A stretch of 64,000 nucleotides of DNA from NCBI RefSeq assembly GCF_000964425.1, contig NZ_BANF01000012.1, forward strand, positions 62,001 through 126,000, in the 5' to 3' direction. This stretch comes from Komagataeibacter intermedius TF2. Lineage in GTDB: Bacteria > Pseudomonadota > Alphaproteobacteria > Acetobacterales > Acetobacteraceae. Both the position numbers and the translations under genes were made by a program. A model generated the notes under the pieces. The model searched no databases. It saw nothing but the letters and a program-made list of their open reading frames with translations, and had not been told where the DNA came from. The first letter of the stretch is position 1, and each line of letters begins with the position of its first letter. This document shows positions 14,644 to 62,585 of this stretch, in pieces.

Positions 14644-14788
14644 ACGCCCCCCATTGCACGGGCCGAAGGAACGGAATGCGCAACAAGCCTTTATTCGCGC
14701 ACCAAACGGTTCTAGGAAGCACTGCTATATAGTGTAATCCCATTCATCCCATGTCACCCCGGTCATGACGCAAGAGGACAACAGAGGT

Positions 14789-20777: not shown

Positions 20778-21422
20778 TTATTGCAAGATGATATGCTGTG
20801 CCCGAAATGCCTGCAGCACCGCCAGCAGGGGCAGGCCCATAATGGCGGAATGTTCCCCTTCCATCCGGGAAAACAGGTGAATGCCCATGCCCTCCAGCCG
20901 GTAGCACCCGACACAGGACAGAATCGCATCGCCTTCGATCGCCAGGTACCGCTCGAGAAAGGAGTCGCTGAACGCACGCATGTGCAGCACGGGACAGGCG
21001 ACATGCCGCCATATCTCGATCCCGTCACGCAGCATCACCACCGCCGTATGCAGGACATGCGGCCTGCCGCGCAGCATGCGTAACTGCTGGCGGGCCCTGT
21101 CCATGCTTTCCGGCTTGTCAAACCATGCCCCATCACATGACAGCATCTGGTCCGCCCCGATCACGATCGCGCCGCTGTCCGCACTGACGGCGCGGGCCTT
21201 GGCGCGGGCCAGTTCAAGGGCCGTCTGCCCCGGCGCCATGCCGCGGGCACGGGCGTGCTCGCGAATGGCATGTTCATCGACATCCGCCGATCTGTAATCC
21301 GCCCGCACTCCCGCCGATTCCAGCAGCCTCCGCCGTGCGCTGGAGCGACTGGCGAGTACTATCGCGGACGACTCCGCCTGTAATGGCGGGGGCTTTAGTA
21401 CTAAATTCGAGTCGTCTGGCAT
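20778..21422 (-). CDS. maf: Maf-family nucleotide pyrophosphatase
   Basis: House-cleaning nucleoside triphosphate pyrophosphatase acting on non-canonical or bulk nucleotides. 214 residues from MPDDSNL, with GGAGAGGG just before the ATG; the ORF continues upstream into the origin-like region, where coding is not credible. Maf signatures: IVLASRSSARRRLLESAG (the SxR motif), ALELARAKARAV, GADQMLSCDG and the GCYRLEGMGIHLF segment. Divergent from hemE across the candidate origin, a gene order shared with other alphaproteobacterial origins. Confidence 0.9.
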   Translation of the reverse strand: MPDDSNLVLKPPPLQAESSAIVLASRSSARRRLLESAGVRADYRSADVDEHAIREHARARGMAPGQTALELARAKARAVSADSGAIVIGADQMLSCDGAWFDKPESMDRARQQLRMLRGRPHVLHTAVVMLRDGIEIWRHVACPVLHMRAFSDSFLERYLAIEGDAILSCVGCYRLEGMGIHLFSRMEGEHSAIMGLPLLAVLQAFRAQHIILQ

Positions 21423-21828
21423 TGCCCTCTCCGTACTGCCGAAGTGAAACATGAATTTCAGCACGTTCGAGTACTGGGGTACATGGGGACAGTACTCCAA
21501 ACAATTCTGTGCCGTACCGAGTACCGTGGACAACGGGTACACCTCCGTTCGCGGTGGGTTGTACACAGGCTTGTGTCGGTACATTCTGGATAACTGCCCA
21601 CAGGCACGGGAATCCTTGGAGTCGGAAACTGTACACTCTGTGGGAAAAGTGGGGTACATTTTCGGAAACGTGGGTACCCCGTCATCCACAGCACTTAAAG
21701 CACATCAAAAATTTTCTTTCTCTTTTCTTTTATTGTTTTGAAAGAGGCGCGCGCGTCGTACCTGCCCGCTATCCGTCACGGCGAAAGTACGAGATAGTCC
21801 GGCCACAACGAAACAGAACGACGGATCG
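21423..21828. other. oriC: Candidate chromosomal replication origin (maf-hemE intergenic region)
   Basis: A 406-bp non-coding region between divergent maf and hemE. GTAC occurs at 21433, 21471, 21479, 21492, 21514, 21521, 21537, 21561, 21579, 21631, 21654, 21674, 21758 and 21787, about ten times the random expectation. Ten of these keep a 18-24 bp (mostly 21-24) spacing apart from one skipped slot. DnaA-box-like nonamers TTGTACACA (21559) and TCATCCACA (21682) each differ by one base from TTATNCACA. An AT-rich tract of about 50 bp follows (about 21692-21741). GANTC sites occur at 21610 and 21619. In Caulobacter and Rickettsia the origin lies beside hemE, and in Caulobacter maf is close by. 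Confidence 0.65.
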
Positions 21829-22890
21829 ATGACTGAAACACGCAAACCCCTGCTCGCCACCCTGTTGGGAGAGGCAACATGGCCACCTCCGGTATGGCTG
21901 ATGCGGCAGGCGGGCCGGTTTCTGCCAGAATTCCGGGCATTGCGTGAAAAAGCGGATTTCATAACCCGCTGCATGACCCCGGATATGGCGGTGGACCTCA
22001 CGCTGCAGCCCATCCGGCGCTTTGGCATGGATGGGGCGATCCTGTTTTCCGATATCCTCATCCTGCCATGGGCAATGGGACAGTCGCTGGAATTCGTGCC
22101 CGGCAGGGGACCGGTCCTGGGTGCGGTCCGTTCACAGGCCGACCTGGACCGGCTGGACCCCACGCGGGTGGAACAGGCGACCCGCCCGGTCATGGAAACG
22201 CTGGGACGGCTGCGCAAGGCTGTTGACGGGCCGGAAGCGATCGGTCCGGCCAGACCGGGACAGGTCACGCTGATCGGCTTTGCCGGCGCGCCGTTCACGG
22301 TGGCGTGCTACATGGTGGAAGGCCATGGATCGCGTGAGTTCGAGGAAACGCGCAGGCTGGCCTATACCGATCCCGCATTCTTTGACCGGCTGATCGACCT
22401 GCTGACCACCGCCACGGCGGATATGCTGTGCAACCAGATCACGGCCGGGGCGGAAGCGGTCATGCTGTTCGACAGCTGGTCGGGCCTGCTGCCGCCGTCA
22501 CAGTTCCGCAAGCATGTCATTGAACCCGCGCGCCGGATTACCGAAATCATCAACGCCCGCCACCCCGGCGTGCCGGTTATCGGCTTCCCGCGTCTGGCCG
22601 GGCTTATGGCGATTGAATACGGGCATGTGACCGGCGTGAACGCGATGGCGCTGGATACCGGGGCTGACATGAAGGCCGTGGCGGAAAAAGTGCCCGACAC
22701 GCTGGTGCTGCAGGGCAACCTTGACCCGATCCGCGTGCTGGCGGGTGGCGAAGGCATGCGTGCCGAAGCCCGCGCCATCCGTGATGCGATGAAGGGACGC
22801 CCCCATGTCTTCAATCTTGGCCATGGGGTCATTCCGACCACGCCCCCCGAACATGTGGGCGACCTGATCAAGACCATACGGGATGTATGA
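21829..22890 (+). CDS. hemE: Uroporphyrinogen decarboxylase
   Basis: Cytoplasmic enzyme that removes four carboxylates from uroporphyrinogen III to make coproporphyrinogen III. 353 residues, the usual length. Signature PPVWLMRQAGRFLPEFR near residue 20 and the second signature region GFAGAPFTVACYMVEG near residue 145; DSWSGLLP and GFPRLAG follow. First gene of a short run with a HAD phosphatase and hemJ on the same strand. Its start is next to the candidate origin. Confidence 0.97.
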   Translation: MTETRKPLLATLLGEATWPPPVWLMRQAGRFLPEFRALREKADFITRCMTPDMAVDLTLQPIRRFGMDGAILFSDILILPWAMGQSLEFVPGRGPVLGAVRSQADLDRLDPTRVEQATRPVMETLGRLRKAVDGPEAIGPARPGQVTLIGFAGAPFTVACYMVEGHGSREFEETRRLAYTDPAFFDRLIDLLTTATADMLCNQITAGAEAVMLFDSWSGLLPPSQFRKHVIEPARRITEIINARHPGVPVIGFPRLAGLMAIEYGHVTGVNAMALDTGADMKAVAEKVPDTLVLQGNLDPIRVLAGGEGMRAEARAIRDAMKGRPHVFNLGHGVIPTTPPEHVGDLIKTIRDV

Positions 22891-62309: not shown

Positions 62310-62320
62310 GGCATAGTTTC

Positions 62321-62472
62321 CGTTCTCTTTCATCCGGACTGTAACCGTCGGTTCCGGAATTGCACCGGATCTGCTTGACCCCGCCCGCGTGTCCTGCGGC
62401 CGGGCGCTCGCGGACTTATGCCCCCTTACGGGAAACAAATACCGCCGGTGGGGAATTTCGCCCCGCCCTGAG
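62321..62472 (-). promoter_or_regulatory. FMN riboswitch (RFN element)
   Basis: Minus-strand sequence matches the RFN consensus along its length: GGGCGGGGCGAAATTCCCC, ACCGGCGGTA, CCGCGAGCG, GCAGATCCGGTGCAATTCC, then GACGGTTACAGTCCGGATG and AAGAGAA. FMN binding should shut off ribD-ribE-ribBA-ribH. The remaining DNA to 62585 is leader and promoter region. Confidence 0.96.
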
Positions 62473-62585
62473 AACGCCTGCGAACCGGGCGGCTGGCCCG
62501 ATTCGTATTCAGTAAGGTGATCTTGGGAATGATTTTAACGAATTGCAAGTGCGGCGATGGATAACCACGGTAAGTTATCGTGATT

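Follow-up and report, generated by a model that had tools for sequence, protein, structure and literature searches.

Among the closest described counterparts of the locus analysed here is the Dam/GATC/SeqA system at the Escherichia coli origin, oriC, where a 4-bp palindrome is densely packed among the DnaA boxes (11 GATC in 232 bp). A second point of reference is Cori of Caulobacter, a hemE-type alphaproteobacterial origin with maf close by; the CtrA box has the motif TTAA-N7-TTAA. In the accessible text of Blow 2016, the motifs of four orphan methyltransferases cluster at putative origins: GATC, TTAA (Arthrobacter), CTCGAG (Nocardia) and CTAG (Haloarchaea, m4C) (PMC4752239). For Burkholderia cenocepacia, the available excerpt of another study describes methylated CACAG at the DnaA boxes of the origins (PMC7364216).

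The Komagataeibacter window, by which we mean the whole 64-kb stretch of DNA under analysis, carries fourteen GTAC in 360 bp between the divergent maf and hemE genes (Table 1). As at oriC, a dense 4-bp palindrome lies among DnaA-like boxes, and as at Cori, the array origin lies beside hemE with maf near. We propose, with a probability of roughly 0.6, that these GTAC sites are methyltransferase targets whose hemimethylation would delay reinitiation, in a manner like that of Dam/GATC but built independently. Like the clusters in Blow 2016, the array is a non-coding motif cluster at a putative origin, and it goes with a methyltransferase gene, here one without an evident restriction partner. The four cases described there do not include GTAC in Acetobacteraceae, and GTAC and acetobacter-type names are absent from the main text as available (PMC4752239). 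Two further features are shown here for acetic acid bacteria: spacing that is constant to the base pair, and an origin that has moved and taken the array with it. B. cenocepacia likewise has a methylation motif at or in its origin DnaA boxes, but there, according to the excerpt, the methylation is on adenine and the motif is non-palindromic, unlike the acetic acid array (PMC7364216). Among the matches listed in a search of open-licence full-text literature, we found no report of a GTAC origin array. Origin clusters of methylation motifs are a known kind of element; what appears to be new is this motif, its group of hosts and an architecture fixed to the base pair.

All fourteen GTAC positions in the preliminary description of this region are exact, and the two GANTC sites and the AT-rich tract that it named are present. 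Its proposal that the array is helically phased did not survive analysis of the whole set, because the fourteen sites together are no more phased than randomly placed ones (P 0.68). The nine sites singled out there do show some 10.7-bp periodicity (P 0.02), but that choice had omitted sites only 7-8 bp away. The regularity of the array is one of conserved spacing, not of a single helical face. The fourteen sites make this the densest 360 bp of the 64-kb window for GTAC, the next independent place having three. The organism's own genome (G000) is a draft of 943 contigs, with the window on contig C932. A pattern search there found three GTAC within 72 bp at 21 places, seven of them in the array; the control for this search, the reversed pattern (CATG), gave 2907 matches and offers no yardstick for GTAC. 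The other places listed have at most two overlapping GTAC triples, and no denser GTAC cluster than the array was seen in this genome.

Table 1. Positions of the array, its surroundings and the candidate methyltransferase gene (window coordinates unless genome and contig are given)
Feature	Coordinates	Strand	Basis
maf (Maf-like protein), left flank of candidate origin	20778..21422	-	PF02545, E 1.2e-43; start codon at 21422
maf-hemE intergenic candidate oriC with GTAC array	21423..21828	.	sequence; in four relatives, skew minimum close to or at orthologous array
Array of 14 GTAC	21433..21790	.	coordinates and density count
Individual GTAC sites	21433, 21471, 21479, 21492, 21514, 21521, 21537, 21561, 21579, 21631, 21654, 21674, 21758, 21787		
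Upstream conserved GTAC block (21471, 21479, 21492, 21514, 21521) with GTAC-ATGGGGA-N-GTAC	21471..21524	+	
TTGTCCACG, DnaA-box-like, after GTAC 21521	21525..21533	-	two mismatches
TTGTACACA, DnaA-box-like nonamer containing GTAC	21559..21567	+	two mismatches to TTATCCACA; GTAC at the column in 31/31 rows
Core GTAC-N66-GTAC-N19-GTAC-N16-GTAC (21561, 21631, 21654, 21674)	21561..21677	+	exact pattern, 134/299 genomes
TTATCCAGA, DnaA-box-like, in GTAC-poor gap	21585..21593	-	one mismatch; consensus GGATAa
Two GANTC (CcrM) sites, 21610 and 21619, in GTAC-poor gap	21610..21623	.	sequence
TTTCCCACA, DnaA-box-like, after GTAC 21631	21639..21647	-	two mismatches; consensus TGTGGGaAA
TCATCCACA, DnaA-box-like, after GTAC 21674	21682..21690	+	one mismatch; consensus ATcCACAG
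AT-rich tract, candidate DNA unwinding element	21690..21739	.	76% A+T; T-rich in alignment
hemE (uroporphyrinogen decarboxylase), right flank	21829..22890	+	TIGR01464 above cut-off, 351.8 bits; PF01208
Candidate GTAC methyltransferase gene	G000:C934:115060-115947	-	PF01555 the only Pfam match

It is very likely that the array region is the chromosome origin, as had been suggested from the window alone. We read GC skew in stretches of four relatives, and the minima given here are those of the cumulative curve over the stretches joined up on either side of the array. The minimum lies 109 bp from the array in G101 (23,861 and 23,970; first 60 kb), 751 bp in G117 (886,445 and 887,196; 690-965 kb), 8 kb in G060 of the same genus (1,974,951 and 1,966,805; 1.80-2.09 Mb, with a 10-kb gap before 2.10) and 30 kb in G025 (1,844,035 and 1,874,439; 1.75-1.935 Mb). 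The cumulative-skew check proposed earlier, run in these four genomes, thus places the minimum at or near the array; the 30-kb offset in G025 counts against our overall explanation. Sampled along their whole chromosomes, G060 and G025 each have two arms, one with mostly negative and the other with mostly positive skew, and some near-zero stretches; three further samples agree in G101, and G117 was read near the array only. The window by itself has its minimum at 14,759, 6.7 kb from the array, which is consistent but weak. Five DnaA-like nonamers with at most two mismatches occur in the window where about one is expected, none of them perfect, and an alignment of 31 regions shows DnaA-like boxes and the AT-rich tract to be conserved as well.

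A GTAC cluster at the orthologous position is found across many species, as judged from 80 hemE loci, 299 genomes and the 31-region alignment. The 80 named loci were picked by HemE similarity alone as the best 80 of 203 and are biased to near relatives, the closest named ones being K. oboediens, K. sp. FXV3, K. europaeus and K. swingsii. Over the 480 bp that precede hemE in these loci, the GTAC density is 25.1 per kb, compared with 1.0 per kb elsewhere, a 25-fold enrichment, while every other palindromic tetramer is enriched at most 1.5-fold. At least six GTAC lie in that 480-bp segment in 72 of the 80 loci, and the exact triple with steps of 23 and 20 bp is present in 70, so the spacing that we had been advised to compare is kept beside hemE in most near relatives. 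The ten loci without the triple are six from Bombella, one from Parasaccharibacter, one from strain B3987 and two metagenome bins, both of which have six GTAC at different spacing. Loci with the array range from 34% to 70% G+C. GANTC, too, is enriched at the array origins (3.6 per region, compared with 0.87 per 520 bp in the loci).

Across the order, the exact four-site core, with a first gap of 65-68, turned up in 134 of 299 genomes and 22 of 65 genera, once per genome. The control for this search, the same pattern reversed to CATG, was found in 5 genomes; in the loci, CATG is about seven times as common as GTAC. Specificity to the family, as first suggested, therefore holds for acetic acid bacteria together with some near relatives. 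The 31 aligned regions are non-redundant and the alignment was not anchored on GTAC, although regions were chosen for at least six GTAC. Here the GTAC columns have a mean conservation of 0.94, compared with 0.63 for the columns between them, and four GTAC columns are kept in all 31 rows. In an earlier, GTAC-anchored count the four sites appear in 28/28 rows by construction of the anchor, and we do not use that figure as evidence of conservation. Sites of the upstream block are present in 17-21 of 28 rows in the anchored count and in 23-31 of 31 rows in the unanchored alignment of regions with at least six GTAC.

Because the array sits between two divergent genes, its sites could regulate hemE and maf from a two-gene promoter region. 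Two genomes of the Bombella group, G032 and G117, have hemE without an array and carry the core 25-26 kb from it. The G032 core (L232:7534-7651, equivalent to G032:C21:59534-59651) lies about 26 kb from hemE, between genes for gluconate 2-dehydrogenase subunit 3 and a GMC oxidoreductase, with rho next. In G117, taken here as the genome of strain B3987, about 25 kb separate hemE from the array, which lies at the skew switch, so the array follows the origin and not hemE. We have rejected regulation of hemE and maf as the main role since the core occurs away from hemE, and we consider this reading extremely improbable. In G032 the core has moved away from hemE in one piece, which amounts to a natural origin transplant.

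The A. cerevisiae array (L098, from a strain other than KSO5) sits at hemE. The accessible part of a published report places the origin of A. cerevisiae KSO5 beside dnaA, at the GC-skew maximum (PMC13209655). Given the hemE-side array in the other strain, this suggests that the KSO5 prediction is misplaced.

Across the 31 regions, the flanks of 395 GTAC carry at most 0.12 bit at any position, so that the sites share nothing beyond the 4 bp. Methyltransferases typically recognize a bare 4-bp palindrome of this sort, whereas for a regulator it would be unusual. At orthologous sites, partial alternatives to GTAC are too few to distinguish methylation targets from protein-binding sites. The DnaA-like boxes lie among these sites, and the commonest such nonamer, TTGTACACA, has GTAC inside it (37 copies in 31 arrays) and shows GTAC at its column in every row. 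This favours a reading in which the GTAC are parts of DnaA-box variants that set the affinity for DnaA, with methylation irrelevant at the origin. Box-like nonamers with at most two mismatches that overlap GTAC number only 85, however, against 395 GTAC in the same regions. The boxes are also not clearly closer to GTAC than under random placement (0.65 and 0.55 in one comparison, 0.56 and 0.55 in another), and we rejected a preference of DnaA boxes for GTAC neighbours accordingly. We therefore give little credence to DnaA-box variants as an explanation of the array as a whole. Unlike Cori, these origins have no CtrA box and the GTAC array instead: the full box is found in none of the 31 regions exactly, in one of them with one mismatch, and nowhere in the window. 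Since full CtrA boxes are absent from the 31 regions, Caulobacter-style silencing of the origin does not seem to apply. In one small genome without the methyltransferase gene described below (L227, G066), the 480 bp upstream of hemE hold dense TGTGGATAAC / TTATCCACA repeats, not GTAC.

A profile search of the own genome gave four PF01555 matches. One is CcrM-like: its best NCBIfam match is CcrM at 622 bits, below the model cut-off of 830. A CcrM-like gene is present in 297 of the 299 genomes of the order, and loss of CcrM was rejected as the reason for a second methyltransferase on this ground. Another, the candidate GTAC methyltransferase, carries TSPPY, a motif that we take to link it to N4-cytosine enzymes, and its best solved matches are chains of cytosine-N4 methyltransferases. 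Its best NCBIfam matches, all below cut-off, are to adenine-specific families. The candidate is probably of the cytosine-N4 type, with the base uncertain in view of the adenine-type annotations. Its gene is flanked by mltA and a MauG-like gene, with tim44 and smr near, and the Pfam-named neighbours in the own genome include no restriction gene. An mltA homologue adjoins it in 8 of 9 other genomes compared. In two enzyme-positive genomes with less similar HemE (G010 and G067; loci L216 and L223), no more than about 8 kb separates hemE from the methyltransferase gene.

The presence of the array follows this gene, which is found in 134/134 genomes with the core and in 19/165 others; the co-occurrence is nested in one clade, so that a Fisher P does not count independent events. 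Three weak matches (G116, G264 and G286; E 2e-23, 4e-21 and 5e-68) were set aside, the others listed having E of 1e-91 or lower. The GTAC count upstream of hemE has a median of 8 in 42 enzyme-positive genomes and of 0.5, with a maximum of 2, in 12 enzyme-negative ones; these genomes are not a random sample, the 42 include G032 (count 0, array elsewhere), and G011 and G088 were left out of the enzyme-negative group. Of the 19 enzyme-positive genomes that lack the exact core, 18 were read at hemE: twelve have at least three GTAC (one of them eight) and six have one or two. The methyltransferase can thus exist without the array. G013, which is outside this sample, combines the enzyme with an array of eight GTAC that are spaced differently. 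The last site, GTACCCC, before the last DnaA-like box, is present in some enzyme-negative genomes too. Three enzyme-positive genomes with less similar HemE (G017, G033 and G067; loci L217, L220 and L223) have three to five GTAC at the origin, in G017 including a GTAC-TGGGGATA-GTAC pair, and these origins are possible intermediate steps of array growth. In a class-wide sample the gene occurs in 3 of 289 genomes, all Acetobacteraceae.

These data bear on the suggestion in the preliminary description that the array binds an initiator or origin regulator. Such a regulator, an activator or repressor specific for GTAC, would explain why much of the array has spacings that do not vary by a single base pair, more rigid than methylation alone needs, and why one GTAC is kept in some enzyme-less genomes; the methyltransferase would then be unrelated to the array and shared only by descent. 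Four base pairs offer little for a regulator to recognize, however, the enzyme gene is in every core-array genome, and GTAC counts at hemE track enzyme status. A binding array is probably the wrong kind of element, since the sites share only GTAC and go together with a methyltransferase of probable GTAC specificity. We regard the regulator reading as unlikely, but a protein may still read the GTAC array.

It is also conceivable that the enzyme serves mainly in genome-wide gene regulation or self-protection, with the origin cluster either a by-product or serving in repair or segregation. Orphan methyltransferases often regulate genes, according to the available text of Blow 2016 (PMC4752239), and GTAC occurs elsewhere in the loci at about one per kb. 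The 25-fold enrichment at the origin counts against this reading, as does the lack of any denser GTAC cluster among those seen in the own genome, which we hold to be very unlikely. Genome-wide avoidance of GTAC was discarded as uninformative, the observed/expected ratios being 0.83 and 0.49 in two enzyme-positive genomes. Small samples gave a ratio of 0.83 for enzyme-positive genomes and 0.66 for a mostly enzyme-negative set, the enzyme search having covered all of its genomes but G011 and G088.

The evidence for GTAC as the target comes from homologues. RsaI cuts GTAC, and in this class of methyltransferase the recognition part lies in the middle region. A homologue in Synechococcus phage ACG-2014j is 44% identical to the candidate along its length, the middle region included, and its gene overlaps one annotated as R.RsaI. 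The R.RsaI name is the depositor's annotation, neither Pfam nor NCBIfam matching the protein, and the phage methyltransferase homologue is itself annotated as a DNA adenine methylase. Relatives of the phage R gene lie on seven viral contigs. Six of these show a methyltransferase homologue directly after it (one cut short), among them a divergent pair at 35% for R and 44% for the methyltransferase, and the seventh contig ends at that point. On plasmids, the phage R gene had no match. The best plasmid relative of the methyltransferase, from Paracoccus alcaliphilus (52%), has no annotated restriction enzyme gene within 4 kb, and a GIY-YIG nuclease gene lies about 2 kb off. GTAC is the likely target of the methyltransferase, judging from these homologues beside annotated R.RsaI. 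The candidate would thus share its predicted motif with M.RsaI (GTAC, m4C), a comparison made through the viral homologues. Unlike M.RsaI, the array-linked enzyme has no restriction gene among its Pfam-named neighbours in the own genome, and it adjoins mltA there and in 8 of 9 other genomes. GTAC m4C is assigned to M.RsaI in the RsaI source strain, in the accessible part of one report (PMC6256690), and the excerpt of another describes persistent orphan GTAC m4C enzymes in archaea (PMC10609329).

Returning to methylation as the preferred reading, the likeliest function of the array would be to delay reinitiation, by letting the cell distinguish an origin that has just been copied and is hemimethylated from an old one. 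From the comparisons above, we infer that the enzyme methylates GTAC, which base it modifies, that the array would be methylated in cells, and that a reader protein would act on it to set timing. In our model, the sites would be methylated by a methyltransferase without an evident restriction partner, encoded elsewhere in the genome. Passage of the fork would leave them hemimethylated for a time, and this state would most likely prevent the DnaA complex from forming again on the boxes between them. The block could act through a reader protein other than SeqA, or through altered DnaA contacts at GTAC-containing boxes like TTGTACACA. Remethylation would then make the origin competent again. A search for SeqA (PF03925) found it in none of 21 genomes, 13 from the genus and 8 from other families of the class, while an E. 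coli control was positive, and for this reason the reader would be another protein or DnaA.

The proposed system would thus resemble Dam in having a methyltransferase without an evident restriction partner in the same genomes. It departs from Dam in that the motif is GTAC rather than GATC and the array-paired enzyme is a PF01555 protein with TSPPY, not a member of the Dam family. It departs from Dam/SeqA also in that SeqA was not found in the 21 genomes and a CcrM-like gene is present as well. E. coli has GATC at its dnaA promoter, according to the available text (PMC5390034). Unlike in E. coli, the 1.5 kb upstream of the own dnaA contain no GTAC, and a GTAC cluster at that gene was discarded as a candidate. 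In its fuller form, which we put forward tentatively and at somewhat short of even odds, our model describes an independent Dam/SeqA-like licensing system: N4-cytosine methylation of a fixed GTAC array would be layered on CcrM and would replace CtrA binding at the origin, with a new protein or DnaA as the reader.

If the methylation model is true, bacteria have evolved control of chromosome initiation by methylation more than once, and the chemistry probably differs between the cases. The hosts, which are used in industry and easy to grow, gave no SeqA match in the genomes searched and have origins that lack CtrA boxes; the analysis names a gene and a set of sites for testing. The pattern GTACN{65,68}GTACN19GTACN16GTAC can also serve as a sequence marker of the origin in many acetic acid bacteria, for which a published prediction may point elsewhere.

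Two minor observations concern other parts of the genome. The window contains an FMN riboswitch at 62318-62479 on the minus strand (RF00050, 110.9 bits). Two near-identical short elements, each with three GTAC around an AT-rich core, lie at G000:C784:5209-5241 and G000:C811:6694-6726.
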